Of a stretch of 64,000 nucleotides of DNA, positions 13,957 through 36,800 are shown piece after piece. Below the pieces are notes generated by a model that saw only the letters and a list, made by a program, of their open reading frames with translations, was not told the origin of the DNA and ran no database searches. The translations under genes and the position numbers were made by a program. This stretch comes from Pisolithus tinctorius (taxonomy: Eukaryota; Basidiomycota; Agaricomycetes; Boletales; Pisolithaceae): the NCBI GenBank assembly GCA_024663395.1, contig JANFAH010000055.1:62001-126000 (forward strand), read 5' to 3'. How positions within the stretch are numbered: position 1 is the stretch's first letter; the number at the start of each line of letters is the position of its first letter.

Positions 13957-14280
13957 CTAGGTTCTGCAACATGGTGTTGACGTTTGCTGAGTAGTTATTG
14001 AATTCGCGGAAAGGGTCGCAAGGGTTATTAGATGAGAAAGGCGCATTGGATTGAGCTGGGGTCTGAGAAAGATTCTCGAAGGGTTGATTGCGGAAGTTGC
14101 GAGAGCGGTTCTTAAAGAAAGTAGCCCGCCCTCCTCGCTTGGGGTGACCATGGTTTTCACGCCCTCCGCCTCAACCCCTGGGTGCATAAGGTTCGTGCCG
14201 GCGGTGCCTCTGACTACCATGAGATACATTTGCTTGTTCTGTTCTATGGTAAGTGCGGTGTTTCTCCCATGAGGGAGCAC
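13957..14280 (-). pseudogene. Gypsy 3'-terminal ORF, function unknown
   Basis: 107-codon minus-strand frame (MLPHGRNTALTIEQNKQ...) between the pol 3' end and the 3' LTR. It may be the tail of the pol polyprotein or a small extra ORF. No domain recognised. Confidence 0.4.
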
Positions 14281-14353
14281 GCTTACGAGTGGCAGTATCC
14301 GCTGCGAAGCGATTGAAGATAACTCGAGTGAGGTATCCAGCTTGATTGTTACC

Positions 14354-16387: not shown

Positions 16388-16464
16388 CAGTCACATGTAA
16401 TCCAGAAAGTGGGTCATCCGACATGCACATTTGGTCCTGAAAGTGGGACTAACCGACATCGGCC
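16388..16464 (+). repeat. KDZ transposon left terminal inverted repeat
   Basis: 77 bp, inverted copy of 33739-33815 with eight mismatches. Inner end reads CCGACATCGGCC. Confidence 0.88.
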
Positions 16465-16506
16465 TATAGACCCTGATGGTGGATAGGCCGACATGTTGGA
16501 GGGAGG

Positions 16507-17870
16507 TCAGCCGGCCTCACTGGGGGATGGACCCACACCCTGGAAGTGGTGTCGGCCGACCTCACTGGACGATGGATCCACACCCTGGAAGTGGTGTCGG
16601 CCGACCTCACTGGACGATGGACCCACACCCTGGAAGTGGTGTCGGCCGACCTCACTGGACGATGGACCCACACCCTGGAAGTGGTGTCGGCCGACCTCAC
16701 TGGGCGATGGACCCACACCCTGGAAGTGGTGTCGGCCGACCTCACTGGGCGATGGACCCACACCCTGGAAGTGGTGTCGGCCGACCTCACTGGGCGATGG
16801 ACCCACACCCTGGAAGTGGTGTCGGCCGACCTCACTGGACGATGGACCCACACCCTGGAAGTGGTGTTGGCCGACCTCACTGGACGATGGACCCACACCC
16901 TGGAAGTGGTGTCGGCCGACCTCACTGGACGATGGATCCACACCCTGGAAGTGGTGTCGGCCGACCTCACTGGGGGATGGACCCACACCCTGGAAGTGGT
17001 GTCGGCCGACCTCACTGGGGGATGGACCCACACCCTGGAAGTGGTGTCGGCCGACCTCACTGGGGGATGGACCCACACCCTGGAAGTGGTGTCGGCCGAC
17101 CTCACTGGGGGATGGACCCACACCCTGGAAGTGGTGTCGGCCGACCTCACTGGACGATGGACCCACACCCTGGAAGTGGTGTCGGCCGACCTCACTGGGC
17201 GATGGACCCACACCCTGGAAGTGGTGTCAGCCGACCTCACTGGGCGATGGACCCACACCCTGGAAGTGGTGTCGGCCGACCTCACTGGGCGATGGACCCA
17301 CACCCTGGAAGTGGTGTCGGCCGACCTCACTGGGCGATGGACCCACACCCTGGAAGTGGTGTCGGCCGACCTCACTGGGCGATGGACCCACACCCTGGAA
17401 GTGGTGTCGGCCGACCTCACTGGACGATGGACCCACACCCTGGAAGTGGTGTCGGCCGACCTCACTGGACGATGGACCCACACCCTGGAAGTGGTGTCGG
17501 CCGACCTCACTGGACGATGGACCCACACCCTGGAAGTGGTGTCGGCCGACCTCACTGGGCGATGGACCCACACCCTGGAAGTGGTGTCGGCCGACCTCAC
17601 TGGGCGATGGACCCACACCCTGGAAGTGGTGTCGGCCGACCTCACTGGACGATGGATCCACACCCTGGAAGTGGTGTCGGCCGACCTCACTGGACGATGG
17701 ACCCACACCCTGGAAGTGGTGTCGGCCGACCTCACTGGGCGATGGACCCACACCCTGGAAGTGGTGTCGGCCGACCTCACTGGACGATGGATCCACACCC
17801 TGGAAGTGGTGTCAGCCGATTTCACTGGGGGATGGACACAGACCTCACCACCTGGAAGTAGGGTTGGCCA
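16507..17870 (+). repeat. Left subterminal array of 45-bp repeats (about 30 copies)
   Basis: Near-perfect 45-bp units carrying the palindrome GTCGGCCGAC. Variation is mostly GGAC/GGGC/GGGG at one site and rare T for C. Because the unit length is a multiple of three and contains no stop, all six frames are open; these are not proteins. The reverse complement shares GTCGGCCGACNCCACTTC with the right array, so the two arrays face each other, the arrangement expected of transposase-binding sites. Confidence 0.93.
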
Positions 17871-18132
17871 AACCCTGAAAATTCCCTTGGCATAATCAAT
17901 TGCTTGTCAATTTAGATGTTACCAGAAGTATTGACTCTGATGACACTTCCAGATGGACATACCCCCTGAGACCAGTGTTGGCCAACCTCACTGGGGGGTG
18001 GCCTTACCCCCTGAATCCATGGCCATTCTTCACCTCCAGGTGATGTCAGTGATCTCACAGGGTTTGAAACTTGCAATGAGCATGGGTAGCCATATATAGG
18101 GATCCTTTTGATTCACACCATCTACAGTTTAT

Positions 18133-20511
18133 TTATAGACCAAGACCCAGAGCTCTCTTGGTTGGTTGACGAGCTCTAGTTGATTTCTTGCTTGCCTCTT
18201 CACCCTCCTTTGCCATCTTCTGATCAACATCCCCACTGCCTCCCCTTTTTCTTTTCCTCACATCCTTTCTTGTATTCTGGGATTCCTTCATGCCACCCCC
18301 CTGGGTGGGACAGGAATCCCCTGCACTGACCCCAGTTGTTTCCTGTGCACCAATCCCTCTGCTTGAGCCACCAGAATTCTGCTGCAGTCTTGCAACTACC
18401 AGCCCCACTGCACCCATAACATCTTCCCCCTTGTGGATATCAAGACCTGAGCCTAGCAAAAAGCCCAGATTAGCAGCTTCAGGGTCATCTGATTCTATGT
18501 CCTGTGCTCTTTTGCACTCCCTCCACAACAAACCAAATCCCAGTACAATGGTAAGACCTTTTTGGGTGGATGCAAACTTTTCACTTTGCAATTGATACAG
18601 TGCCTTCCAGAAGGAATCCCCATTGCCATGCATCTCCTGGGGCAAATACTGGGCACTCCAGGCCCAAGATGCCCAGACAGGCAGGTTGACTGGTCCAGCA
18701 TCAGGTTCCTGTACAAAATGTTTGTTAACCTGGTATTTGAAGAAAGTTTATCACTTACTGTCTCTGGCAAGCCATCTACAAGCTCAACAAGTTCCTGGTA
18801 CCTGGGCATGATGCAAAGGGACTTTAAATATTTCACCCTGTCCCCATTGGCATGACAAGCAGGGCTGGATTCATGAGGGGTATCTTCAGATGGGGCCCTC
18901 CCAGAGTCAAGGATATCCTGGGCCCCTGATGAAGTTGCTATAGGGGTCATACCAGCCCCACCAATTTCTTCCCCTAAATCTGAGGGCTTGGCCTCCACCC
19001 CAGCTTCACTGTCCTCCCCAGGGCTCATCCACTCTCTCTTTTTGGATGGGGTTTTCCTGTTCCAGGGCCTTCCCAATGGCTCGTCCTCCTTTTTGCACTT
19101 GATGAATGAAACAATCACCTTATCCTCCTCCTCTTGGGAATTCCAATGATTCCAAAGCATCCACATGTCGGCCTTGGTCCATTTTGAAGGATCTTTCATC
19201 ATGAATCCTTCTGGGATGGAATCGGAACTCAGATACTCCAAATGGGACTTGATAAGCAGGCCCCAGGGAACCTTGGCCTTGGGCTTCCCTGTAAACTTTG
19301 CTATGTTTCCAACTTCCATCAACAACTGTAGATGCACTTGACAATCAAGAACATACCATAGGCAGCCTGGAAGACCATTCTTGCCAAACTCTGCTGGACC
19401 TTGAGTTTCTGACCAGTCCAAGCTGGTACCTCTGGGTTTCCTTCATCATCCAAGGCTATCTCCACCTTTGGATTCTCATCATTCAAATCTTCCTCAGCTG
19501 AGTATGGAATCAACCTAGGTACACATATTACATTGATCACCAATGTTTATCACTTACCAGCTTCAGTCAAAAGATAATTGGTTAACATTTGCTCTCCCTT
19601 TAGAACCCAATCCTTGGTGGGCTCTGAAGACTCTGAGAAGGCCTTCTTCCCATCAGGGGGTTGTGTTTCAAAGCTAGGTTTCTTCATTAGCATTAGATAG
19701 ACAAGGTAAAGGGGAACCTACACTGCCATCTTGATCTGAGAATCAGTAGTCTCATGAGCCAGAAACATCACTATATTTGACCCCATGGTCCTCCTGACTG
19801 TTTCAATAAAGTCTCTGGCCATGTTGGGAAAATTTTTTCTCCTGTACCTGAATTATTGCATGATTAGTATAAGACATTTGAAGTAGACCAGCACTGACAA
19901 TTCATGAGTTTCTTTTGGAGCTCCCAACTTATTCCACTTGGAAGCAGCCCTCCCTGCTTCAGCCTTCTTGTCATCTGCAAGAGACTCCCACCACTGTTGG
20001 ATGATTTTGGTCCTCTGACCTATGGTCTTGGGGTCCTTGGTGTCCCTCCTCTCCCTATCATAGGCATCCATGTCCTCTTTGAAGAGCTGCTGGGAGGCAG
20101 TAAAATCAGTGAAGGGTTTTCTGTAATTTCCAGCCTTGGTAGGTCTGGTCCTCTCCTCTCTGCCATCCTCATCCTCACCAGTCCCAGGCTGCTCCTTCCT
20201 CTTGTCTGTTGCAGCCAGGATGCTCTCAATGATGTGTTCCTCATCATCCTGGTCTTCAGGGTCTAGTTCTGGCAAAAACACCCTTCTGATGGCCTAAATA
20301 CACTTGAGATATGTGAAACTTGATGAAAAAGATACCCTACCACTCTCAAGTTCTGGGGCAATTCCACAGATCCTGAAGATGCTTGCTGAAGGATCTGGGA
20401 TTTCACATCAGCCAGGATCTGGGCCCTGAGGTCAGGATTCCCTTGGGCATCTGTGTACTGCTCCACATAGGAGGACAGCAGATCAGAGTAGACTTCAGAC
20501 CAATCAGCCAT
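18133..20511 (-). CDS. KDZ-transposon accessory protein with HMG-box-like region, basic C-terminus
   Basis: Several exons read on the minus strand from MADWSEVYSDLLSSYVEQY (ATG 20511). After the first intron (about 20340-20287) comes AIRRVFLPELDPEDQDDEEH, then a charged region and FTASQQLFKEDMDAYDRERR ... IIQQWWESLADDKKAEAGRA, whose Trp and Lys spacing resembles an HMG box. Further on are NFPNMARDFIETVRRTMGSN, a segment with FTGKPKAKVPWGLLIKSHLEYL, and a tail rich in Lys/Arg (RKRKRGGSG, KKSTRARQPTKRA) suited to nuclear entry or DNA binding. Proteins of this sort recur beside KDZ transposases in mushroom genomes, from memory, but their function is not known to me. Exon joins in 18.5-19.9 kb are approximate; the frame is open across most of the gene. 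Transcribed in the same direction as the transposase. Confidence 0.6.
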
Positions 20512-20744
20512 GAGAGAATAGAATCAGGGGGATAATTAGCAGCACAGATGATGGAGGTTGGAAGCAAGGTGAAAATTTTTCAGCCTTTCCCAATTTAGGC
20601 AGGAGGTTGAAGTTTTCGGCCATCACTCTTTTAGGAAAGGTACCATTATGGTATGATTGTTTTGATGTATTTGCTATTCACTTTGATTCAGATACCAAGT
20701 GCAAAGCAAGGGTAATCGGAAAACTATACACATATACCCATGTT

Positions 20745-23700
20745 CTAAATACAATCCATTTGTTTACCTTGGAACATCAATTGGGCCTTTTTGGAAAAGT
20801 CAGTCCACAACACTATCTGCTTATGAGCATAAGCCTTTTTCCCTGGTTCCAACAATTGTAGAGCCCTTTTCTCCCATATGTCCTTCTGGAACTCAAACCA
20901 TAAGATGGCCCAAACCATCTCATGCCTCACCAATGACAATTCTTCTTTCCACCTGTCCCTTCTTGCCCTTGCTTTGAGCCAGTTGATCCTGTAAACTGCC
21001 CCACAATTTATTGGTGAGATTTTTTCGAGTAGTATTAACACTTACACTCCTCCATTAAACCCCCCTTCTCAGCATTCAGTTGACCCTGTTCACCATCCAT
21101 CATCCAAAACCATGCCATTTTGCTGGTTCCCTGCCCAAACCAGTTCTCCTCTGTAACATCCTTACTCACTGCCAGGTCCTGGGGCTGAATAGCCTGATAT
21201 CTTTGTCCAATCTCTTGATTGGGTTCCAACTGGAGAATGGCCTGCCTTGCCCTCTGATAACTTCTGACCTGCTTGTTTATCCGAGCCACCACTTTTTGGA
21301 TGTCCTGCTTGGTTCTTGTACCTTCCCTAGTTGATTGTGCACTGCGGAAGTTCTGTCTGTATAACATTGCCTTGTGTCCAAGGTTGGTTCGGAGCTGGCC
21401 TAGACAATCATTAGCTTGCCCAATCCTGAGTTCCATTTCTTCTTTGAGGAGGTCATGAAGGCCAAGCTCCATCAGTTTGGTTGCTCCAATGGATGAGGGC
21501 ATCCATATACTCATGAGCTCAGCAGGTAGCTCCTCTCCTTCTTCTGTAGCCTCCCAATCCTCATCATCTTCCCAGTACTCTCCATTGTCATCAATTTCTT
21601 CACCTTGCCCAAGGAATGCTGGATCATCCTGGGGTATGAAGACATCATCCACCTCCAAACCTTTGAGAAATGCCTGGCTGGTGCCATGGAATTTGTCAAT
21701 CCTGGCAGAAAGTCTTTTTCTTTTCTCTGAGACTTTGATTTCTTGTCTGGTAGACATGTGGCTCTGTCTAAGCTCAGATCTTAGCTGGTCCCTGCAGGTC
21801 TGGTTAGCAACCTATTGCTTCTGGAAACCACAGACCATACTGTGCATCCTCTATGCTAATTCCTTCCACAAGCCAAGCCACAGAACCATGGCTCCCTGGG
21901 GACACAGGTGGATTTTTCATGAGCTTTAACTGCACTTCACCCATGGTAGGGGCTACAGGCCATCAGACATGCCCAGGGTTTCTTAGGAACATACTGACCT
22001 TTTTCCCCTTTCAACAAATAAATGTCTAGGGAATCACCTCGATTTGCTTCTGCCTCAAGAACATCTGACTCCCATTGGGCAAGTTGGCCAGGGTCTAGAA
22101 CAGCTGTCAACTGCTCATATGCCTGATTCATTTCTTCTAGGCACTTGTGTGAGGTCTTGTATTTTTTCAACAGTGCAGGAACTGAGATGTACAGGGTAAA
22201 TTAACTTCTCTTTGAAGAAAAGGTCTCTCACCCATGTTGACAATTTTTTTCCAGTTAGAATCTCTCATATGGTCATCATACACTTCTTGTCTGTGGGCCT
22301 GAGTCATAGACCTTGCAGTGGGAGAGATCTTATTGAATGGAGCCCACAATGTCTCCAATATTTCACCATCCAGATGACCAGCACCCTTGATAAAGTTGAG
22401 GCTATATCTTGGAAAGCAAGAGAGTTTGTGGGCAGCAAGATGAAACTTCCCCACAGCAGGAATGATTTCCAGGGAGGGAGGGAGATGGAGAGAGCAGCTG
22501 GATTTTACCCGACTCTGGAAGTTAATACTCCACTGGCACCCAACATCATAAATGACAAGGGCCTTTGTGATGCTTTCTGAATGATAATCAAGAGCACTGC
22601 AGATGGAGTAATCTGTGTTCATGTACCTAGCACAAAATGAGTTCCAAAGGCTTCCAGTACATCCATCAGGTCCACTCACTTTTCCCCTTTCTGAAAGTCC
22701 ACCACAGAATGGGGAACAAAGCAACCATGCCGAGCACAGGCTGTGGCACCAATCCCAGTGGACCGGAGATTGGACTTGTTAATATTAGCAGCATTGATTG
22801 CCCTGTGATTGCTGCAGGTGGATCTCTACCAGTACAGTGGGTCATTTAAACTCCATGACCTTGGGACAACTCACCTCCTTGTTATCCAAAGACTGCTCAA
22901 GATGGGCCTGGTAGGGCTTTTCAGCAACCATGTAACCAGTTCCATCTGATAATGACACATCCAACTCAGGCTTGTTCATTTTCATATGCTGAGCAGTGAA
23001 GTTGCCATCCATGACATATTGCCTCATTATGGTATCACTAAGGGGGGAGGGGAGTTAGAAATCAAAACCCTACAGATTATCACTCCATACCTGTCATATC
23101 GGGTTTTCCAATCTGGAGGTAAATTAATACCTGGTTGTGGGCAGGCAGGACAAAAGAGTGCAAGTTCTCCTTGTCTAGGATCTTGTTCTTTATCATGACC
23201 AAAGCCAAACCATTTCCTATGTTTCAAATCCCTCCACAGTCTGGAAACCCTCATCAGCTCTCGGTACCTGTCCTAATTGGAAATGAATGCATTAATAGAA
23301 CCCCCTAAGAGCAAATAGTGCATGGCACTCAACTGGTATACAGTCAGGAAATGCATTGTTGGTGAACCTCTTCAGCTTCTGATAGAAACTCATAGCTGAA
23401 GTCTTGCATTCCAGGGCATCAATGAGAAAGTGATTAAGAACATCAAAGGTGAAAGCAGTCTTGGGCTTTGTTATACTGGCTGGAAAGAGTCTTTCCCTGA
23501 GTAAATCAAGGTGCCAGTCCATTGGATCTGACCCAGGGCAATTGCACCAAGAAATCTCATGAGTGAAAATTCCTTCTGTGTGCACTATGGTCATTTTTGA
23601 TCTGAAGGATCTCCTGCTACCAGAGGTTAACATGGAGGCTACAGGATATGACTGCCATTGACCTGTAATTGGGAGGCCCTTCCCCAGAAGTATAGCCCAA

Positions 23701-24345
23701 CTCCTCTGAGTCTGGATCCTGATTCTGTCTGTTTTGAGGGCAAGGACGACCCCCATGGCCAATGTGCCAAAGGAACCCAAGTGCCATCAAAGAGGTAGCC
23801 TGGTAATGAGTAGCATTCCATCTTTGTACCTTGTGGAATGGAAGATTTTGATGCACTTTCACAGCACAAGGACCACACCAGGCATGCACACCAATGCAGG
23901 ACATGCATCTGATACTTCCTTCTGCCTGACAGCACTGCTCACATATCCCCCCCTTAGCCAGCTGCTCTCCCTCGAGAATGACTTTGAGATATTCTGCTCT
24001 CCAAGGCAGCCATTCTCTGATGAAATCATTTTGACTCTAGGGGATAATTTAGCCAATGCAGTATCAGGCAAAACTTCCCACCTTGGTAACCCTCCTAGTA
24101 TTTGGGGTATCTTCCTCATCATTCCAGTCCAAGGTAGGCATGTCAAAGGAGTCTGGGACAACATTTTGGGAGCCTATTGTCCTGGGGGTCCTTGGAGTTG
24201 AAGGTTGACTCTGAGATGGGAGGTAGAGGTGTCTAGCATCCACCTCCTTGTAGGTGTCCTTTCCTCTCCGGGTTTTAGTGACTTCAAATTTATACAAACC
24301 TCCTGCAGAGCTTTTGCCAAGGACTTTGGTTCTACGACGACGCAT
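20745..24345 (-). CDS. KDZ transposase (CxC2-type)
   Basis: Transposase of the Kyakuja-Dileera-Zisupton superfamily. From ATG 24345 (MRRRRTKVLGKSSAGG): a DNA-binding CxC2 cysteine cluster with CEQCCQAEGSIRCMSC, HAWCGPC and LPFHKVQRWNATHY (23.95-23.8 kb), followed by IFTHEISWCNCPGS and PKTAFTFDVLNHFLIDALECK; the RNase-H-fold core with YVMDGNFTAQHMKM (first acidic residue, about 23010), IYDVGCQW (second, about 22560), PAVGKFHLAAHK and GAGHLDGEILETLWAPFNK (Glu, about 22350); and a C-terminal helical region with NWLKARARRDRWKEELSLV and GKKAYAHKQIVLW. Many introns of about 50 bases are needed; no unavoidable stop was seen, so it may be functional. The 3' end could include one more small exon below 20745. 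Confidence 0.85.
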
Positions 24346-24489
24346 GATTGAGCACAGGAAGAGTCAAAAGCAAGGTTTTCAGCTGTATTGAAAAATTTTC
24401 ATCCCCAAAACAACACCACACAAGTCCAGAACAAGGTTATCAAATGTATTTAAAATATTTGTACCCAAAAATTGCCACTAAAATGTGTT

Positions 24490-25835
24490 TTAAGTGTATC
24501 TGACAGCCAACCCAAGAATGTCCTTTTGGGTAGTCCATGCTGGTCTTGTGACCTTGAGTCGGTCATGTACTTTGTCCTTCATATAATGCACCAATGCAAT
24601 TCTTTCTCCCTTCTCCCACTTTGGCACAGAATGTTGAAGGATTTTTCCTGATAGGAAAATCATGGTGCCTGGGGAATAAGCCAGTTCGGCCCCCAGATCT
24701 GGAATAAGGAATTTAGCATTGTGAGAACCCAGGCTCACTAATGAATCCAGAAGGGTTGGGGTGGATGTGACATCTCGGTGAGAGGGAGTTTCCTGATTGA
24801 CAATAATATCAATGTTGGTATAGACCGATGGCCAATCCAGGGATATCTCATTCTCCACCCTGCCAGCCTTGGCCAACATTGCTTGATCACCAGCCCTGGC
24901 CATATCTGGCAATGAGACCTTTGCTATATTGCTCCAGAAGTGTTCCACATAAGAAATCTTGAGCAGCCATTCCCTATTGGCTTTCTGTTTGAGGGATGTG
25001 CTTTGATAGAGTGTATCAACCAACCTCTTTAAATTTGTCAGCCCCTACCATGGAAATCACAGCACCTGGACAAACCTCATGAGCCTGTTGGAATGTGGCA
25101 GGAGACATGGAAATCCTGCCATGTCCATACATGACTTGGTCAACAGGCTGATGCTTATGGCCATATCGTTTGTTAAGCTTGCTTTTGTCTTTTGGCTTGT
25201 TCTTGGGCTCAGTCTGAAGATTGTCTTTTATGGAAAGGAGAAGGGAATTGAGAAGTTCCTATGATATAAAAGCTGTAGTGAAGGGTTGTCAGAGAATGAA
25301 AACACTCACTATCCGTGCATCTGGGACAATACCAGGCAGATACCATACTATCACCCTGCCATGCACATCCAGAACTGTGGCAGGAGCATTGATATACCCA
25401 ATTTTTGGGTTTTCAAAATGGATGGTCCTGTCCTTGGCATGCACCAATGGTTCAGAAAACCTGTCTGCATCCCAATGCATCACATCTATTAAGGGTCAGA
25501 CTTGGATCACTTGGAATTGTTGTGGAAATCACCTACAGGGATTGAGGATGGCATGTGTAATGACTGCAGATGCCAGCCTAACTTCCAAAGATGTAATAGC
25601 ATCTGAAGTTAGACCAGATTCCCCTTGCAATGTTGCCCTGACTTGGGTTAACTCAGCCAAGGATCGAAGTCTATTATCCAACTAAATACATAGCAAGTGT
25701 AGCATCACTGCTTATGGCTTACCTTGGCTTCCTGAGCTGGTGATTTGAGAAAATAGAGCTGGAAGAGATCATAGGGACTGTTCCAAAGGCAGCCTTCAGC
25801 ATTCCAACCACCATTGTATGCAGGGAATCATCCAT
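24490..25835 (-). CDS. TET/JBP-family 2-oxoglutarate/Fe(II) dioxygenase (5-methylcytosine oxidase)
   Basis: Members oxidise 5-methylcytosine (or thymine) in DNA using Fe(II) and 2-oxoglutarate. Seen in order: SPYDLFQLYFLKSPAQEAK (about 25780), LDNRLRSLAELTQVRATLQ (25.68 kb), KDRTIHFENPKIGYINAPAT and VLDVHGRVIVWYLPGI (25.43-25.33 kb), GRISMSPATFQQAHE (25.1 kb), and the double-stranded beta-helix with WPSVYTNIDIIVNQETPSHRDV, carrying the iron-binding H-x-D in HRD, then LGAELAYSPGTMIFLSG, distal His in LQHSV and the 2-oxoglutarate-binding Arg in KGERIALVHYMKDKVHDRL. Introns with GT-AG borders at about 25.7, 25.5, 25.3 and 25.05 kb keep the frame. The 5' end is unresolved: the frame of exon 1 meets TGA at about 25829 with no ATG after it. 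Closely upstream of the transposase and co-directional. Confidence 0.85.
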
Positions 25836-28040
25836 GATGATGTGGGGGGTGTTGGAAAAGTCAAAGGAAAATTTTTCAACCGTGAGAAAAATAGTTAAAA
25901 ATCACTCAGTACATAAGTTGGAAGTTATTCTCCACAAGGGACCTTGCTTGACTTGGGGGAAGATCCAGAAACCAGAAACCCAACTTAGTCTACTAGATAC
26001 ACCATGTTTCTTGAAACATCTAGTCATGTAAGCAGGGGCCTGGAATGGTGCAATCAAACTCAGCAGCAGTTGAACTCCAAGTCAATCCAGTCCAGCAATC
26101 TCTTGAGCATCATGGGAAACCATGGAACACCAATACTAATCTAGCAATCTAGCAACATCCAACAGCTAGGAACACATCCAGACAGCATTTGAAGGGAAGA
26201 TGTTGGGTTGCTAGTAATGCCATTGGCAAGCTCTTGAGCATCAAAGGGAAACCTTGCTTAAGAAGATCAGCCATGGAACACCAGTGCTAATCTAGCACCA
26301 TCCACCAGCCAGGCAGACTGACATGAAACAATACACCAAGTCATTTGCTAAGGTTAGGGTTAGAAGCAGACTTGCATGAAGAAATACACCAAGTCTTATG
26401 CTAGGGTTAGGGTTAGCACATGCTTCATTCAAAAAAAGAAGCATAGATTCCCACACAGCATTCAAATCCAATCAAAGCAGTGACATTTACAAGTCCATAC
26501 ATAAATTCAACTACAGTTACAATTTCAACTACAAAGGTATAATGGTTTCATAAGAAACCAAGGCTTGCCTGCATTCCAGAGGGGGCCCTCCTCCAGAAGT
26601 ACAGTTGGGCCAATAAAAACCGTCCTCAATTCAACCAAGTTCCCAAAAAAGCGCACAAAAGCAGATAACAAAGATCCTAAAAACACATTAGCATCAACAC
26701 AACTTTGCAAAGTTCACATACCTGAGGTGCACTATTTATTCACCAGGAGTCAAAGACAAACAGCTCTAGAAAGTTTATGTCAGTACAACATAGATTATAC
26801 AGAAGTTGAATACTCACTACACCAAAGCCTGACCAACTAGCTACTACCAATATATACCAACACATACCACACAAAAAAACGTCATAGGCTGACCCACACA
26901 GGTGGGTACAGACCAAATAAAACGTCATAAGCTGACCTACAATGTAGGTACAGACTAGCCCCCAGATCCCATGAGCTGGCCTACAATGTAGGCACAGACT
27001 ATTCCCCCAGACCCAACATATTACCCAACAACCAAAAATTGCGCTGGCCAAGCACAATCTAAGGTCAAGGGTAGCCCCTCCCTACATCCTGTAGCTGCAG
27101 ACTACAGTCAATAGTGAGGCGCCAAGGATGCTGCAAAGTAACGGTAATCAAGTAATGTGAAAATTCTGGGATCAGAGGTGCCACTTACCTTATGACAGCC
27201 GAGACGACGGGCTGAGATAAAAACGAAGATGACGTAGCACAGAAAACGGGAAAGAGAGAGGGGGAAAGGGAGAGGGAGATGGAGGGAGAGGGAGGATGAT
27301 GGAGGGGAAGCGTCACATCGCAGAGAAACGCAGTAAGGGAAAAAATATGCCACTGACTGGGGGGGATTTATATACTTGAGTCTTATGTACCGTTGTTTGG
27401 CCACAGTCCAACTAGCGAGGTTGCCGTCAATGTCACGTTCTCGGCCTCGGTGCGTGTTCAGTTGCCGTGAGTGCCGGCAACTTCCTCTGAGTCAGTACCG
27501 CGTGTCGTACTATACATCGCGAATAGCGATGTCACGTGACTCCACTGTCACCGGATTCGGCTTCTATATACTAAATACTAAATGTTCGCTTGACATTCTC
27601 GTAATTGCATTGTCGAGCCGAGCAAGCACTCCCTCGTGCCGTTGGCTGAGCGGTAGTGGTGGCTTACCCTTGGGATTTCACAGAAAATGTATTGTAGTAG
27701 CACTACCGGATCATTTAATACATGTAGTCACTTATTGAAACCGGAAATCGGCCTAGCGGCGACGGACCACTCCGTATATAGTCCTACGTAATGTTCCAGA
27801 GACGCATCCGAAGTACGGGTAGACACGTGTGATAATCATGACAGCCGTGACGTTGTTCATGTCACAATTAAGGTTGTGTCCAAGATTATCACAGGTCTCA
27901 CTACGTGACCTGTCCAAAATCGAGATCTGTGCATCCGAGTATCCGGATTGACACGGTCTTTTGCTCCTCTCCTCTTGCCACACAGTGTCTCCCTCACCGA
28001 CCGTCGTTGCATTATCCCACTCTCTGGCCCCGCTGCGTCT
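25836..28040. promoter_or_regulatory. Central divergent region of the KDZ transposon
   Basis: Separates minus-strand genes from the plus-strand H3-mimic gene, so promoters for both directions probably lie here. Contains an (A/G)-rich run GGGAAAGGGAGAGGGAGATG near 27270, TATA-like TTTATATACTTG at about 27367 followed by dense CpG, and short imperfect repeats of TGACCTACAATGTAGGTACAG type at 26.9-27.0 kb. No protein-coding gene was recognised. The part 25.9-26.5 kb is A+T-rich with small repeated phrases such as ACACCAAGTC and AACCTTGCTTAAG. Confidence 0.4.
26349..26418 (+). repeat. Two telomere-like TTAGGG pairs
   Basis: AAGGTTAGGGTTAGAAG at about 26349 and CTAGGGTTAGGGTTAGCAC at about 26401, about 50 bases apart inside a short imperfect duplication (both near TACACCAAGTC). 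Too short to be a telomere relic with confidence. Confidence 0.4.
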
Positions 28041-28046
28041 CAGCGA

Positions 28047-29580
28047 AATTTTTGGTACGTCGTCGTCCTCTGGATCTCTCGCGCCTCTCCCTCTCTAAAC
28101 ACAAAATAGGTACGTCGTGCCGCGTCTCCCTTCAAAAAAAAAACAAAAAAGGTATGTTGTCGAACCTCTCATGGCTTCAACACTCACATCACACACCAGG
28201 ACGCTGCCATTCTTCTCAGTCTATTGCGCGTTGTTCAGTGTCCCATACTACTCACAAAGCCCGTTCATTCAAAAAGAAGGTAAGTAGCTCGCAGCGTCCC
28301 TCTACAACTCACAAAACACCCCCCTCCTCTCGCCGGGTCTCATCCAAAAAACAGGTATGTCGTCCTACTTCCCGGCGTCCCTCTACCACTCACAAAAACA
28401 CCCCCTTGCCGTGCTTATCCAAAAAAAAGGTATGTCGTCCCAACTTTGCGGCGTCCCTCTACAACTCACAGAACACCCCCTCGCCGTGCCTTATCAAAAA
28501 AACAAAAGGTAAGTCGTCCCAGGTCGCGGTGTCCCTCTACCACTCACAGAACACCCCCTCGCCGTGCTCATCCAAAAAAAAAGGTATGTCGTCCCAGCTT
28601 CGCGGCGTCCCTCTACAACTCACAGAACACCCCCTCGCCATGCCTTATCAAAAAAACAAAAGGTAAGTCGTCCCAGGTCGCGGCGTCCCTCTACCACTCA
28701 CAGAACACCCCCTCGCCGTGCTCATCCAAAAAAAAAGGTATGTCGTCCCAGCTTCGCGGCGTCCCTCTACCACTCACAGAACACCTCCTCGCCGTGCCTC
28801 ATCCAAAAAAAGGTACGTCGTCCCAGCTCGCGGCGTCCCTCTACCACTCACAAAACACCCACAGAACACCCCCTCGCCGTGCCTTATCAAAAAACAAAAG
28901 GTAAGTCGTCCCAGGTCGCGGCATCCCTCTACCACTCACAGAACACCCCCTCGCCGTGCTCATCCAAAAAAAAAAGGTATGTCGTCCCAGCTTCGCGGCA
29001 TCCCTCTACAACTCACAGAACACCCCCTCGCCGTGCCTCATCCAAAAAAAAGGTACGTCGTCCCAGCTCGCGCAGCGTCCCTCTACAACTCACAAAACAC
29101 CCACAGAACACCCCTTCGCCGTGCTCATCCAAAAAAAAAGGTGTGTTGTCCCAGCTTCGCGGCGTCCCTCTACAACTCACAGAACACCCCCTCGCCGTGC
29201 CTTATCAAAAAAACAAAAGGTAAGTCGTCCCAGGTCGCGGCGTCCCTCTACCACTCACAGAACACCCCCTCGCCGTGCTCATCCAAAAAAAAAGGTATGT
29301 CGTCCCAGCTTCGCGGCGTCCCTCTACAACTCACAGAACACCCCCTCGCTGTGCCTTATCAAAAAAAAAAGGTATGTCGTCCCAGGTCGTGGCATCCCTC
29401 TACCACTCACAGAACACCCCCTTGCTGTGTCTCATCCTACAAAAGGTATGTTGTCCCAGTTCCTGGTGTCCCTGTACCACTCACAAAACACACTAGTAGG
29501 CTATCAATTCATATCTCCCTCCTGCCACACTGCATCTCCCTTGCTGTGTCTCATCCAATAAGGTATGTTGTTGGACTTCT
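28047..29580 (+). repeat. Tandem ~77-bp units resembling repeated mini-exon plus intron (leader of H3-mimic gene)
   Basis: About 20 units. A typical unit is AAAAAAGGTAAGTCG (5' splice-site-like), about 40 bases later ACCACTCACAG (branch plus 3' splice-site-like), then about 35 bases AACACCCCCTCGCCGTG...AAAAAAG and the next GGTAAGT or GGTATGT. Donor-like cores vary as GTAAGT, GTATGT, GTACGT; some units end CACAA and so lack the AG. A last, diverged unit (about 29790-29858) has GGTATGC...ACACTCAG immediately before the ATG of the downstream gene. All three plus frames are open because units lack stops, so a Lys/Arg-rich repetitive protein cannot be excluded. Confidence 0.7.
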
Positions 29581-29858
29581 ACTTCATGGTGTCCAGATGA
29601 TACTTACATATCACCCTCTTTGGTCTGCTTATCCAGTGCCCAGTGTTGTGTAGTTGCATACATTGGCTTGTCTTTTCCATAAATATGTAGATATCTATCC
29701 CTGCTGCATGATATATGTACTAAACTAAATGCATTTATTGTTATCTTACTGCTTGTCCCCTACACCTTTTGTGTCTTGTAAAGATAATAAGGTATGCTAC
29801 TGTTCCCTTCTGTGTCATATGTTGCTGCCACTCACTAATATTGGCATAATACACTCAG

Positions 29859-31446
29859 ATGGTGAAGACCAAGCAGACAGCTAAGAAGACCACTGGGGGT
29901 AGAGCTCCCAGGGTATCTCTTGCTGGTCTGAAAGCTAGGGAAAAACATGCTGCCAAGTCAAGCAAGGCCCATGCTAGGAAGGCTCCTGTTGCCAAGAAGA
30001 GAAGGATGAGGAACTTGGCAAGTCTCTTTTTATATTCCATCCATCTTTCTAACATTCTATGCAGTTCTGTGTGATGTGCAGGGATGGAGGGACATTGTGG
30101 CCTTGTGATCAGGCAGGATGCAGAAGGGTAGTGTGTAACAAGTGTGTTGTAGTACCTGAGGATTGCCTTGCAGAGGTCACCCAGCTTCCTGTGACCTTCA
30201 GGTGTGTTAACCTCCCTTTTATGAATTAACTCCATTGACTCAAACTCTGGATGAACTTCAGGTGTGTTGCCTGTCATTGGAAAATGACAAGATTTGAAAG
30301 TCCTCAGCCCTATTTTGTAAGTGCATATTGCTACCCCAATCACTTCTAACTCCAAGTACAGGGCTTCTACTTGTCAGGCAAGCCAGTCCTGAAACACCCT
30401 CTTGTGGTCATTGGGGGGTTTGAGCATGCCACCACCTCTGAAGTGGCTGGTAACTCTACTGCCATTATCCACCTCCACCTTGAGTCTCTAGAGCTTGGCC
30501 ATGCCCCTGTGCATATCCTTCACACCATGTTGCAGGGATATTTCAGACAAGACACCTACCACTTCTCACAACTGTCCTTCAACTTTGCCACCGAGGAGTC
30601 CAGAGCTGCCTATGACACTGCAGCATCAAAGCTAGCTTCAAGTCTGACTACCTTTGCTAAGGTAGTCATTTTCCTTACTACCCATACTGATGAAGACAGG
30701 GGGGATCTGTTCTCTGGAATGGAGAATAAGGTTCCAATAGCCACAGAGGTCTTTGAGGTAAGTCACCATTGTTTGACTGTCACTCCCATCTGACCAGTTG
30801 CAGTTTCTGCAAGGCCTTCTGTTACCCCTCTCCAACATTGTCAAGGGTGGAGACCTCATCTTCTTTGTATGTGGTTCTACTGTAAGGAAGGAGCAGAGCT
30901 TCCAAGGACTGGAGGCAGCTGTGCAACAGTAGGTTTTCTTTCAATGTTGGTGGTTATGGCTGACACCATATCAGTTTCAAGCCAAGGTCCATGTTGCTTT
31001 TTGATGCTGAGAGACTTCAACTAGTCACCACCATTCCCTTCCTCATGAGTGTCCTTGACTCCACCCTTGTTCAAGGCTTCCATGTCCAAAGTGCAGTCAG
31101 GTATGCCCTGAATGACTGTGGTATGTTGGGTAGGCACTCCAACATCATCCTGATGTTGTGGCAGGAGAAGGTAGTGGTGGAGAAATTTGTCTGGACTGAC
31201 AAGTTCATCAGGCCTTGGGGACAACAATTGCCTGCCCAGTGCCCTCAGTGTTATAGCATTCAGAAGTGGGAAGCTGGTTGTTCAGGGCAGACTTATTCCT
31301 ATGAGTGCAAGAATCCTGGCTGTGGGAAGGACACACAAGGCACATCTCAGCCTCCCCAAACCTATACTATCTGCATGTCCAAAGGGGCTACCAAACTGAC
31401 ACAGGGAAAGGGGCAAACATCATCCTGGCTGTTGGAATCTTTGTAA
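29859..31446 (+). CDS. Histone H3-tail-mimic protein with PHD-like finger and C-terminal zinc ribbon
   Basis: After the initiator Met the protein reads VKTKQTAKKTTGGRAPRV; histone H3 reads ARTKQTARKSTGGKAPRK. Lys4, Lys9, Thr3, Thr11 and Pro16-Arg17 are kept, and most changes are conservative. A basic stretch follows (KAREKHAAKSSKAHARKAP). A GC-AG intron (G/GCAAGT at about 30017 to CAG 30063) leads to a zinc finger CVMCRDGGTLWPC ... C-x4-C-x2-C ... CVACHW, PHD-like. Next come VVIFLTTHTDEDRGDLF and DLIFFVCGSTV, a strand-His and strand-Cys pattern reminiscent of caspase-like hydrolases (weak), and finally CPQC ... CKNPGCGK, a zinc ribbon. Introns at about 30.20, 30.32, 30.76 and 30.93 kb splice in frame to TAA 31446, about 450 residues. 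Sole plus-strand gene of the transposon. Confidence 0.8.
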
Positions 31447-31845
31447 AATACCCTACCTTGATACATATGATATGCATGTACTACAATCAAAAATAGCTGC
31501 TTTGTGTTTTCAAATTTCATATGACATTGAATGTTCAGAAAAAAAAGTAATTTCCTGCAGGACAATTCCTCCTTAAGTACTGATACACAACTGAGTAAAT
31601 TTGCCCAATGTTAATTCCAATACAATCGCCAGATTGGTAGAGTTAACTTCAATACCACAGGATAAGGATAGGATATAGGATTTTTCCACAACCATCTGGG
31701 TTCAGCCAGCTAACTACCAAGGAAGTAGTGTACTGAGTAATAAGATTGGCCAGCCCCACTAACCCACTAGCAAGATATTGGTCTTTCTTGCAAAGTGTCT
31801 GCCCAACCACAACTCCAGGTCATGGTTCATTCCCCCCAGCCACAT
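31447..31845. other. 3' region of H3-mimic gene
   Basis: A+T-rich, no ORF of note; presumably the 3' untranslated region, leading into the first diverged 45-bp repeats near 31750. Confidence 0.5.
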
Positions 31846-33700
31846 CAGCTGACCCCACTGCCAGGACATCATCCCTTCCCCCAGCCATGTCAGCTGGCCC
31901 CACTTCCAGGTCACTAATCTATCCCATAGCTGGTTTGGCCAACCCCACTTCCAGGTCACTAACCTATCCCATAGCTGTGTCAGCTGACACCACTTCCAGG
32001 TCACTAATTCATCCCATAGCTGTGTTGGCCAACCCCACTTCCAGGTCACTAATCTATCCCATCTGTGTTGGCTGACCCCACTTCCAGGTCACTAATTCAT
32101 CCCATAGCTGTGTTGGCCAACCCCACTTCCAGGTCACTAATCTATCCCATAGCTGTGTTGGCTGACCCCACTTCTAGGTCACTAATTCATCCCATAGCTG
32201 TGTTGGCCAACCCCACTTCCAGGTCACTAATCTATCCCATAGCTGTGTTGGCTGACCCCACTTCTAGGTCACTAATTCATCTCATAGCTGGGTCAGCCAA
32301 CCCCACTTCTAGGACACTAATCTATCCAATAGCTGTGTCAGCTGACCCCACTTCTAGGACACTAATCTATCTCATAGCTGTGTCGGCCGACCCCACTTCT
32401 AGGACACTAATCTATCTCATAGCTGCATCGGCCGACCCCACTTCTAGGACACTAATTCATCCCATAGCTGTGTCGGCCGACCCCACTTCCAGGACACTAA
32501 CCTATCCCATAGCTGCATCGGCCGACCCCACTTCTAGGACACTAATCTATCTCATAGCTGTGTCGGCCGACCCCACTTCTAGGGCACTAATTCATCCCAT
32601 AGCTGTGTCAGCTGACCCCACTTCTAGGACACTAACCTATCCCATAGCTGCATCAGCCGACCCCACTTCTAGGACACTAATCTATCTCATAGCTGCATTG
32701 GCCGACCCCACTTCTAGGGCACTAATTCATCCCATAGCTGCATCGGCCGACCCCACTTCTAGGGCACTAATTCATCCCATAGCTGTGTCGGCCGACCCCA
32801 CTTCCAGGACACTAACCTATCCCATAGCTGCATCGGCCGACCCCACTTCTAGGACACTAATCTATCTCATAGCTGCATCGGCCGACCCCACTTCTAGGAC
32901 ACTAATCTATCTCATAGCTGTGTCGGCCAACCCCACTTCTAGGACACTAATCTATCTCATAGCTGTGTCGGCCGACCCCACTTTTAGGGCACTAATTCAT
33001 CCCATAGCTGTGTCGGCTGACCCCACTTCCAGGACACTAACCTATCCCATAGCTGCATCGGCCGACCCCACTTCTAGGACACTAATCTATCTCATAGCTG
33101 TGTCGGCTGGCCTCACTTCTAGGACACCAATCTATCTCATAGCTGTGTCGGCCGACCCCACTTCTAGGGCACTAATTCATCCCATAGCTGTGTCGGCCGA
33201 CCCCACTTCCAGGACACTAACCTATCCCATAGCTGCATCGGCCGACCCCACTTCTAGGACACTAATCTATCTCATAGCTGTGTCGGCTGGCCTCACTTCT
33301 AGGACACCAATCTATCTCATAGCTGTGTCGGCCGACCCCACTTCTAGGGCACTAATTCATCCCATAGCTGTGTCGGCCGACCCCACTTCCAGGACACTAA
33401 CCTATCCCATAGCTGCATCGGCCGACCCCACTTCTAGGACACTAATCTATTTCATAGCTGTGTCGGCCGACCCCACTTCTAGGACACTAATCTATCTCAT
33501 AGCTGTGTCAGCCGACCCCACTTCTAGGACACTAATTCATCCCATAGCTGTGTCGGCCGACCCCACTTCCAGGACACTAATTCATCCCATAGCTGCATCA
33601 GCCGACCTCACTTCCAGGTCATCAATCCATCCTATAGTCATGTCAGCTGACCCCACTTCCAGGGAAGTTGATCCATCATCCTGTGACATAGGCCGACCCC
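31846..33700 (+). repeat. Right subterminal array of 45-bp repeats (about 40 copies)
   Basis: Units contain GTCGGCCGACCCCACTTCTA and a CTAATCTATC-type spacer. Outer units keep both CpGs of the palindrome; inner units (31.9-32.4 kb) often read GTCAGCTGAC, TTGGCTGAC or TTGGCCAAC, that is, CpG replaced by TpG or CpA. The 568-codon frame through the array is a by-product of the period. Confidence 0.93.
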
Positions 33701-33738
33701 ACCTTCACAGTCTGGCCTACCCAACCCTAGGGACCACC

Positions 33739-33815
33739 GGCCGATGTCGGTTAGTCCCAGTTTCAGGATGAAATGTACATGTCGGATGACCCACTTTTAG
33801 GACTACAAGTGACTG
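33739..33815 (-). repeat. KDZ transposon right terminal inverted repeat
   Basis: Inverted partner of 16388-16464. Ends with GTGACTG, then gypsy pol sequence resumes. Confidence 0.88.
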
Positions 33816-36800
33816 AATCATGTGTGTTAACACGTGTCGTAGGTATTTTTGTCTCGGCGGGTGTCTCGGGTACTGTTGGCACATCAGGTGATGTGTCAGG
33901 CTTTGGCATATTCCCGCCCTCCAGTGATTGTGTTGGGTCGCCAGGTAACTTCAGGATCACTCGTTTTGCATTAGGGAATGCTTCCCGTGCGCTAGACTGA
34001 CACCTTGTCGCTCCCAGGAATATGGGTGATCCCGTGTATAGCGGGGTGGTGATCAAGTTCAGCAGCAGTTTTGAAGGTGCGTGCTCTTCCTCAGCACTGA
34101 CATATTCTGAGGCTGATCGTACTGTCCCTTTAGGTTCATCCGAGTATATACGGCTTAAAGCATCGGCGATGACATTTGTCTTGCCTGGTATATGCACGAT
34201 CTCGAAATCGAAGTCACTCAATGTTTCGAGCCACCTAGCTTGCCGTGGGGACAGTTTCCGCTGCATCTGGATCCATTCAAGTCCCTTATGGTCCATGAAT
34301 ATGCGGAATTTCGTGCCTTGCAGTAGGTGTTGAAATCTTTTCAATGACTCTACTATAGCTAATAGTTCCTGTTCGTGCACGGGGTAATTCTGCTGGGCCG
34401 GATTAAATTTACCAGACCAGAACGCTACAATGTTTCCTTTCTCCATAGTTTCGCCCTGCCAGATTACACCGCTTCCACCTGACAAGCATGCATCGCATGA
34501 CAAGTTTATTGGTGCATGCCCTGGTGAGTAGTCGAGTGTCGTTCGTCGTATCTCGCGATGTGTTTGTACTAGCTCTTTTACTAAATCAAATGCTCGTTGT
34601 TCTGTAAACGACCAGCGCCAGGGTGTGCCGGCCGCTGCAGTCTTGTGCAGGTGCCCGAGGGGTATGCGAACACCTTCGCATCCGGGTGCAAGGTACCCAA
34701 CTGCTCCAATGAAGCCCATGAGTAAGTCTTTGTTAGTAGGCGTCTTCCAGTTAACAATTTTATCCACTTTGTCAGGGTCCATACGGATACCATCTGTGTC
34801 GATCACATGTCCCAGGATTCGTAATTCGTTCATAAAAAATTGAAGTTTGTGTTCGCTCAGATAGAATTTATGTGTCTGCAGAGTGTCAATAACAATTTTG
34901 ACATGCTTCACATGATCTTTGAGTGAGTCAGAGTAAATCACTATGTCATCTAGGTAAACGTCCATGAAGATTCCTATGTACGGCGTGAATATATGGTTCA
35001 TCAGCGATTGATAAGTTGCGCCTGCATTGCAGTCGCCAATTTGCATAACATGGCTGATCATAGTCCCATCCGGTGTTGTAAATAGTGTCTTAGGGACATC
35101 CTCTGGAGTGATACGGATCTGCTCGTAGGCATCCTTGCCATCGAGCAGAGACCTGTAGGGGCGAGATACCACATTGCGGAGGATCGCCTCCATATCTGGT
35201 AGTGGAGAGGCTAGTTTCCTTGTGTTGGCGTTCCGTTCCCTTGTATCTATTACCGTTCTCAGTCTTAGCGAGCCATCCTTTGTGGCCTTTTTAAGCATTA
35301 GCATAGGGATAGCATTTGTACCGCTGCTAAACTCCCAGCGTCCGGTTCGAATGTAGTCATCTCGCTTTGAGCGCCATAAAGGCTTGAGTGGTTCAGGGCA
35401 GCGGGATGGACGCCAAGAGTATACTTTATTATCATCTATCAGCGGGATAACATGATTAATGTCATGGAGTGGGGGAAGGGGGGTTTCAATGGCCTCCTTG
35501 CATATATCCCTTGCATATGCCCTCAGTTCTTCTCGACACCTCTCCTTCTCGTCTGCTAATAGCTCCGCTGCTCGTGACTCTAGCGCGATAGTTTGCGGTC
35601 CCCAGATGGGTAACGAGTTGTCGCTGCGGACGGTAATTTGAGACGGATTGAAACCAAGTAAAATCTTATGTTGGAACAAAAATGGCATACCGAGGATTAA
35701 GTCATATGAGTCAAGATTTGCGATGTCTAGTATGCGTTCTTCATGAATGTTCTGGTACGAGATCCAGGGCATCGTGGTAGCTTTTACTTTTCTGCGTGAT
35801 CCCGAGATGGCGAGCTGGAGGTTTAGGGGTTTATCGAGTAGATCGAGGGGGAGTTGTAATTGGTCTACGAGCGTGGTGGAAATAAAGTCTGACGACAATC
35901 CAGAGTCGAGCAATGCTCGGCAGGGCTTGTCATTGACACGGACTACGACGATGATGGGTTTGGGCAGGAGGCGAGTGGTACCTTTGACGCGTGCGGCACT
36001 TCGTTCAAGCGTGTAGGTTTCCTCTTCATGATCCCCCTCGGGGGAGTGCAGTCGAGCTGCTCTGCACTCCAAGGTATCGGTGCTGATGGGCTTAAGGCAA
36101 TTTGGGACTATGGGAGGGGGCCCATGCCATCTCGTTTCGCGTTTGTCAAAGACTAGTTCATCATAGTGCTCAGCTTTCTTCTGGTGGAGCCAATGGACGA
36201 CATCAAAATCGGGGTCAGCGAGATCCTCGTAGTAGAGGATGTGATTGTCGAGGGTATACTGATCTGTCAATAAGTATGTGTCTGGGCCACCGTAGTCTTC
36301 TAAGGTAAAACAATCACGCTGGTAGGGGGAATTGTCCGGGTCGATCTCCTGGTCGAGAGTCAATGGAACAGCGTTGTACAATGTAGCTATCATATGTGCC
36401 TTCAAAGTTTCTCGTTTTAACTGGAAAAGCTCAGGCATTTCCGAGTGAGTAATTCCTAGCGCAAAGAGGCCGAGTTCAGCCCCTTCTTCAATGGCTGCGA
36501 GGTGAGCTTCGGCGGGGGACATGTTAACAGTGTTAAGACGGACATGCGGTCCTTTCCGCTTGTCCCTGGTCTGCCAACGCTTGGGACAATTATGCTCTAG
36601 GTGGTCTGTGCCTTCGCAGTTGAAGCACTTACCTTCTGCTCGAAGGCGCCTCTTCCACTCTTTATCGGGGTTCTGCTCTTTGCGATGATGACGGTTCTGG
36701 TCCTGGCGTGTGCTATTATCTTTGTTATGAGCTGCGCTTCCCGCGTCTGTCGCGCCGTTAGTTTTTACAGAGGCTGCACTAAGTTGATCAGTGCTTATCC

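Follow-up and report, generated by a model that had tools for sequence, protein, structure and literature searches.

A protein encoded by a Kyakuja-type transposon of Pisolithus tinctorius carries a conserved copy of the histone H3 tail

The 64,000-bp stretch analysed here, from the genome of the ectomycorrhizal fungus Pisolithus tinctorius (contig JANFAH010000055.1, positions 62,001 to 126,000; hereafter the window) contains a complete Kyakuja-type (KDZ) DNA transposon, one gene of which encodes a protein that begins with a close copy of the N-terminal tail of histone H3 and continues into a predicted PHD-type zinc finger and a predicted caspase/CHAT-fold domain (Table 1). We regard it as nearly certain that this H3 mimic is kept by selection. 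That the tail is more conserved than the remainder of the protein in distantly related mushrooms suggests that the transposon uses a copy of H3 to tamper with host chromatin.

The ATG at position 29859 is followed by VKTKQTAKKTTGGRAPRV, and residues 2-19 of the protein are identical to residues 1-18 of histone H3 at 12 of 18 positions and to those encoded by an H3 gene of the same genome (ARTKQTARKTTGGKAPRK) at 13 of 18. When the exon-1 protein was shuffled, the best match in the same register was 9/18 in 200,000 trials compared with the 12 observed, and in any register 11/18 was reached once in 20,000 trials with all the rest at 10 or below. A phmmer search of the PDB chains with the model of 449 amino acids gave 133 matches at E up to 10, and the best 60 of these were all histone H3, H3-derived sequences or H3 peptides (best E = 0.0024), matched at the N-terminus in a register starting from residue 1-3. 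The H3-like tail with 12/18 identity that had been claimed from a first, sequence-only reading of this DNA was thus borne out by the sequence, the shuffles and the PDB matches. A search of the whole genome with a tail pattern found 55 places and the reversed pattern found 0; a chance origin of the tail is ruled out by this search and the shuffles. The 55 places comprise 42 of the window's codon type, which were looked at in part, 9 of other types, eight of which were fetched, and 4 host H3 places. At three of the other-type places (L047, L050 and L051) the finger lies in the reading frame of the tail, the remaining fetched ones being too short or shifted, and one of the 42 (C63:179790) was unsupported by the matches to the 207-bp stretch 29859-30065 and by one further search. 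A further family of tail genes, with the tail MARTKQTAKKSACGTATRV, was seen in the same genome at L047-L050 (on C3, C11, C17 and C6), with finger and His motif present in L047 and L050.

Homologues were collected by three protein searches, one of which listed 120 of its 470 matches, and 139 proteins were left after the removal of two true H3 proteins among those listed (P0130 and P0131). Their hosts are Pisolithus, Suillus, Scleroderma, Paxillus and Chiua (Boletales), Ganoderma, Dichomitus and Earliella (Polyporales), and Mycena and Coprinopsis (Agaricales). Identity to H3 1-18 reached at least 9 positions in 110/139 homologues and at least 10 in 106/139, the best match in 417 whole-protein shuffles of the homologues being 8; when the protein bodies were clustered at 75%, the tail was present in 43 of 55 clusters. 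Because a search that includes the tail could itself bring in tails, the third search was run with residues 112-555 of a Ganoderma protein alone, and among its 14 matches (the query included) there were 10 new Polyporales proteins, 9 of them with the tail. The tail MARTKQTARNSTGGKAPRK of Ganoderma sinense is identical to H3 at 17/18 positions, and the corresponding tails are MARTKQTARRSTGEKAPR in Earliella and MARTKQTARKSQGASAPR in Coprinopsis. In Mycena (P0125, P0127 and P0128) a glycine-rich insertion divides the tail into MARTKVTAR, holding Lys4, and AQKSTGGKAPR, holding Lys9 and Lys14, with both modules kept, and in two Suillus proteins (P0114 and P0122) the tail is reduced to MARTKI(K/Q)STGGSAR by a deletion that lies between Lys4 and position 9.

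Among 18 representatives that we chose from four groups, members of different groups shared on average 0.64 of the tail residues (0.74 of residues 1-8), compared with 0.34 of those in the finger, 0.23 of those in the CHAT part and 0.25 of those in the body; the tail was more similar than the body in all of 109 pairs. The sequence-only reading had asked whether the tail is kept more than the rest of the protein in homologues, and at 64% against 25% it is. Between two other families of the genome 7.0 synonymous and 0 non-synonymous steps were counted over residues 1-9. Compared with one host H3 gene, the silent-site divergence (pS) over residues 1-18 was 0.63-0.78, a value that over 18 codons gives a direction and not a precise rate; with silent sites diverged to this degree, recent re-capture or gene conversion from host H3 is disfavoured. 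Judged from these comparisons, the tail is under purifying selection across three fungal orders.

The residues that are kept were counted on the majority tails of 42 clusters, that is all 43 tail-bearing clusters except the Mycena cluster P0125, in which the tail is divided by the insertion; P0096 and P0086 were placed in groups by likeness. The 12 clusters without a tail at 8/18 were left out (P0066, P0076, P0081, P0084, P0087, P0095, P0113+P0120, P0114, P0116, P0117, P0122 and P0135), some of these having worn or shortened tails and some being truncated models. Gly12 was kept in 41 clusters, Lys4 in 40, Ala15 in 39, Arg17, Thr3 and Gln5 in 37 each, Ala7 in 36, Lys9 in 31, Lys14 in 11 and Lys18 in 1. 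In the 11 Polyporales clusters residues 1-5, 7 and 8 are all identical to H3, whereas Lys9 is kept in 1 cluster and replaced by Q, V, N, D, H or R in 10; among the 30 clusters from Pisolithus and other Boletales, position 9 is K in 29 and R once. Since position 9 varies in Polyporales, the function common to these tails cannot be to imitate methylated Lys9. The sequence-only reading had seen both the Lys4 and the Lys9 contexts kept in the window protein; in the homologues the conserved one is that of Lys4, and the counts do not support the proposal of a general lure for readers and writers of H3K9. On these counts such a general Lys9 lure is unlikely, and the common function could be to mimic the Lys4 end. 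The natural variation, with Lys4 fixed and Lys9 and Lys14 free in Polyporales, tells which half of the tail matters. An explanation of the tail as a basic patch was rejected, as the conserved residues are the uncharged ones (T3, Q5, T6, A7, G12 and A15) and the basic K14 and K18 are not kept.

A mimic of the Lys4 end would depend on where the protein starts. In the gene model, which has introns of 40-60 bp, intron 1 (30018-30064) appears to be GC-AG and was read in this way because, of two donors weighed by eye, this one keeps the finger in frame. The range first given to the protein, 29859-30065, has the right start but consists of exon 1, an intron and the first base of exon 2, whereas the gene reaches 31446. 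A total of 87 annotated homologues were found, and the five best, all from Pisolithus orientalis, are 88-89% identical at 100% query coverage and agree with the model. Met directly precedes the tail in 97 of the 110 tail-bearing homologues, which supports the start codon, and the tail stands at residue 2 of the annotated model in 53 of them. The first residue of the tail is A or V in 99/110. The initiator Met is normally removed before A or V, and a free amino end is what the pockets of PHD, LSD1 and BIR proteins use.

Some observations were made upstream of this start. By eye, an open frame from an ATG at 29729 could be joined in frame to the tail by splicing from a GT near 29793 to the CAG preceding 29859, and the H3-like end would then be hidden; a similar upstream splice is seen in some P. 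tinctorius models (P0006 and P0010). A 76-bp tandem array lies just 5' of the gene (28289-29491), and P. orientalis models (P0001 and others) seem, by eye, to splice repeats of the 76-bp type onto the front of the protein.

The window protein has eight zinc ligands with the spacing of a PHD finger (C55, C58, C67, C72, C77, C80, C100 and C103). A set of 27 distinct homologue fingers was chosen by a pattern requiring those Cys, and 14 of these were aligned with the window finger; the invariance of the Cys in this alignment of 15 is by choice, because the selection pattern requires them. When the finger profile was compared with the PDB, PHD and ADD chains were found with E down to 3.5e-8, the nearest being readers of unmodified H3K4 (CHD4, SP140, ATRX, AIRE and PHF21A). 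Single fingers matched Pfam weakly, 5/15 to PHD (PF00628, best 3.3e-4) and 6/15 to DNMT3_ADD (best 3.6e-4), with the unrelated zinc-binding family CK_II_beta matched by 10/15 at a similar level. The structure-search lists had no PHD row and were uninformative on the finger. From the profile similarity we predict a finger of the H3K4-reader type.

Behind the finger, the codons of His225 and Cys274 of the window gene are found at 30683-30685 and 30870-30872. In an alignment of 56 homologues that we chose, H224 was kept in 56/56 and C276 in 55/56 (one gap). The predicted models of homologues have a caspase fold, and in that of P0080 the His and Cys lie at the ends of neighbouring core strands (216-222 and 268-274). 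Pfam gave no match for the model of 449 amino acids and no family for nine homologues scanned singly. In two AlphaFold models of homologues the tail is ordered and anchored from H3 residue 12 onward and ARTKQT is free and apparently extendable. The PHD-type finger, the caspase/CHAT-fold domain and the TET/JBP gene of the element were all beyond the sequence-only reading.

That reading had also claimed that the gene is transposon-encoded, and it does lie inside a complete KDZ element with target duplications. When other copies were compared with the window by BLAST, homology began at 16378-16379 and stopped at 33824, with 98.1-99.6% identity over long stretches (four copies, among the matches listed). 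Ten further copies were fetched; the nine with both ends read each had their own perfect 7-bp duplication (9/9), and the left end of the tenth was not found. Kyakuja elements have 7-bp duplications, 5'-CA..TG-3' ends and no terminal inverted repeats, as described in the main text of Kojima 2025 (PMC12730594). Both the CA..TG ends and the 7-bp target duplication are present in the window copy. In the transposase gene one frame (23295-23786) matches CxC2 (PF18803, 5.3e-24) and another (22170-22778) matches KDZ (PF18758, 1.9e-28), the other two frames having no Pfam match, and the TET/JBP exon shows, by eye, an H-x-D and a distal His. The gene at 18133..20511 had no Pfam match; its HMG label follows a usage reportedly found in the KDZ literature (Iyer et al. 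2014). The two 45-bp subterminal arrays differ in sequence, yet both contain GTCGGCCGA and may be transposase binding sites.

At least 40 scored matches to the 207-bp stretch, 96-100% identical, are present in the genome, and the frame of 449 codons is intact in 9/10 other copies, the tenth having a 7-bp deletion. A dN/dS check on copies of the window family found 1-4 coding changes per intact copy (nine copies), too few to be informative. Among the matches listed, 30 of 41 distinct HMG-like places have one of 51 tail-pattern places no more than 20 kb away, the chance expectation being 0.02 per place; 39 of the 41 were used in this count, and the two omitted (C4:505565 and C24:646680) are not near a tail gene. 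One HMG-like place (C42:426257) is 9 kb from a tail gene of another family, and 5 kb separate a TET match from C2:1202445, which also belongs to the other-family tail genes. For the KDZ and TET places among the matches listed in the genome, a neighbouring tail gene was shown for a minority. Five annotated Suillus proteins begin as members of the tail-protein family and continue directly into an HMG-like protein that is 27-34% identical to the Pisolithus one, with clear tails in two (P0091 and P0102) and worn tails in three. From the HMG-like linkage in the genome and the Suillus fusions we conclude, on sequence evidence, that the tail gene travels with this transposon type beyond one species.

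The reading that we prefer, although we give it somewhat less than an even chance, is that a free H3K4-like end fills the pockets meant for the H3 N-terminus, alongside a chromatin-targeted protease, with an antisilencing effect. That such a pocket is the target is fairly probable, and the coupling of the mimic to proteolysis is proposed tentatively. With the initiator Met removed, the tail would begin with A/V-R/K-T-K-Q-T as a free end. Its second half (GGxAPRVxL) may pack on the protein body and hold the first half out, in the way that a nucleosome presents the H3 tip, and the tip could fill the unmodified-H3K4 pockets of PHD/ADD readers, of an LSD1-type demethylase or of the finger of another copy of the protein. 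The protein's own finger would dock on silent chromatin that is unmethylated at H3K4, where the caspase-like domain, held at or switched on by the captured partner, might cut that partner or a nearby H3 tail; together with the element's TET enzyme, the mimic protein would keep the transposon out of silencing. In its strongest form, which we consider unlikely, this would be a programmed antisilencing protease, carried by mushroom transposons, that uses a fake H3K4 end to fish for host readers and erasers and, at silent chromatin, destroys them or clips H3 tails.

Several results weigh against this preferred reading. The tail was missing at 8/18 in 29/139 homologues, some of them truncated models; the Chiua protein is without any tail, and several Suillus members have worn or shortened ones. 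The tail is internal in 57/110 annotated models, which start upstream; should their starts be correct, the N-terminus would not be free. Further down the list of the finger search are MLL PHD3 and DIDO1, which read methylated H3K4. The tip is bound to the finger in neither AlphaFold model, the predicted local confidence (pLDDT) of residues 1-11 being below 50. The Foldseek TM-scores were low, 0.27-0.28 for the top row, and the 20 families that 56 members matched at E 0.1 included no Pfam CHAT, C14 or peptidase family; the domain is a probable cysteine protease, its putative activity resting on the modelled fold and two conserved residues.

A rather unlikely alternative is that the tail serves as ligand for the PHD-type finger of the protein itself, either within one chain or from one copy to another, and keeps the protease off or drives assembly; H3K4-unmethylated nucleosomes would compete for the finger, so that switching-on occurred only at silent chromatin. 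Ligand and matching reader class stand in one protein, some fingers resemble DNMT3_ADD (with the reservation made above about CK_II_beta), and the ADD finger of DNMT3A is known for a similar autoinhibition, but neither model places the tip confidently on the finger and some Suillus members retain the finger with worn tails. The tail could also be a pro-segment resembling the substrate of the protease, with GGxAPR-V putatively near the active site of an enzyme that clips H3 tails. The tail is ordered from H3 12 onward in both models, Arg17 is kept in most clusters, and several caspase-fold proteases cleave after Arg or Lys. However, the two models do not fix the docking place of the GGxAPR-V segment, R17 is present in just 7/12 clusters of the other-Boletales group and the conservation of ARTKQT is left unexplained, and we consider this role improbable.

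Quite improbable, too, is a pure docking peptide that recruits an LSD1-type demethylase or a Survivin-type BIR protein, with the caspase-fold domain as a scaffold. The frequent A or V at the first tail residue would suit it, as would the SNAG and Sgo1 precedents, both described (in the passages cited below) as using a free H3-like N-terminus, but the His and Cys are almost invariant in an otherwise drifting body. Attraction of H3K9 methyltransferases or HP1 would fit position 9 in Pisolithus and other Boletales; it is very improbable, and as a general function rejected by the per-site counts, given that Polyporales changed this position while residues 1-5, 7 and 8 stayed. The region is basic, as a passive fusion with the end of an H3 gene or a mere nuclear or DNA-binding stretch might be, but such an accident is scarcely credible for a tail conserved over three orders with far diverged silent sites and with its uncharged rather than its basic residues kept.

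Viral, bacterial and host proteins that mimic histones are known. The likeness of SNAG domains to H3 is loose. In passages of PMC5896174, the SNAG domains of GFI1 and SNAI1 are H3-like N-terminal peptides that bind LSD1; they likewise stand on non-histone proteins, but these are host transcription factors, whereas here identity to H3 reaches 17/18 residues and the window's protein is encoded by a transposon. The N-terminal tail of Sgo1 has a free H3-like N-terminus bound in the H3 pocket of the Survivin BIR (passages of PMC9253516), but this likeness covers four residues of a host protein; LIG1 is a host protein with an H3K9-like mimic bound by UHRF1 (passages of PMC6316679). The window finger resembles PHD/ADD fingers (CHD4, SP140, ATRX, AIRE and PHF21A) in its significant profile similarity and eight zinc ligands, and differs in sharing one protein with its presumed ligand and with a caspase-fold domain. 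What the protein family has in common with CHAT proteases (SAVED-CHAT) and caspases is the fold of two predicted models, with His and Cys after the expected strands; unlike them, the window protein has no sequence-family match, carries a PHD finger and an H3 tail in front and is cargo of a fungal transposon.

TET+ Kyakuja (KDZ) transposons of Agaricomycetes were reportedly treated by Iyer et al. 2014. Those of Kojima 2025 (PMC12730594) are like the window element in their KDZ transposase, TET/JBP gene, CA..TG ends and 7-bp duplications; no mention of the gene for the H3 tail, PHD finger and CHAT domain was seen in the passages of that paper covered here, the words PHD and HMG are absent from its main text, and its four uses of "histone" concern other matters. 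A search of the open-access literature at the level of titles and abstracts found no report of transposon histone mimicry or of this gene, which Iyer et al. 2014 may already describe, and a search joining CHAT domain, transposon, fungal and PHD found nothing. In the present case the mimic is long, shares a protein with a reader-type finger and a caspase-fold domain, and comes from an element with a TET/JBP dioxygenase of its own. An 18-residue peptide and one recombinant protein make it directly testable how transposons counter histone-based silencing. If the capture and cleavage of host readers were true, it would be a proteolytic counterpart to the element's TET demethylase, and a selfish element would be making its living from an almost perfect imitation of the H3 tip.

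Table 1. Features of the window, with positions counted from its first base.
Feature	Position	Strand	Basis
Complete Kyakuja-type (KDZ) DNA transposon, 17,446 bp, ends CAGACC..CATGTG	16379..33824	.	homology limits in other copies and 7-bp duplications
Target-site duplication TGTTAAC, left copy	16372..16378	.	
Target-site duplication TGTTAAC, right copy	33825..33831	.	
Subterminal array, 45-bp unit, 29.8 copies	16506..17844	.	
HMG-like protein gene, several exons	18133..20511	-	matches 19346-20511; frames 18133-19442 assigned partly by eye
KDZ transposase gene, open frames	21035..24036	-	Pfam matches in two frames
TET/JBP dioxygenase exon	24490..25044	-	PF12851 3.2e-9, 36.7 bits against a cut-off of 34.9, match 24493-25044
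H3-tail protein gene, 449 amino acids, six predicted exons (29859-30017, 30065-30201, 30262-30316, 30362-30757, 30798-30928, 30975-31446)	29859..31446	+	
H3(1-18)-like tail, residues 2-19	29862..29915	+	gene model, PDB match, shuffles, per-site counts
Basic linker ending KKRRMRNL	29916..30017	+	
PHD-type zinc finger, predicted (C55..H104), split by intron 2	30068..30277	+	gene model, profile search
CHAT/caspase-fold domain, predicted, approximate limits	30308..31130	+	fold from models of homologues
C-terminal zinc ribbon (CPQC .. CGKD), approximate limits	31240..31330	+	
Subterminal array, different 45-bp unit, 39.3 copies	31898..33663	.	

Around the element, the transposon interrupts a Gypsy-like pol reading frame on the minus strand (13957-16390 and 33763-37782), with reverse transcriptase and integrase-like parts, by eye, flanking it. 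Two very similar long frames on the minus strand (6755-8113 and 41224-42522) are, by eye, cytochrome P450-like.
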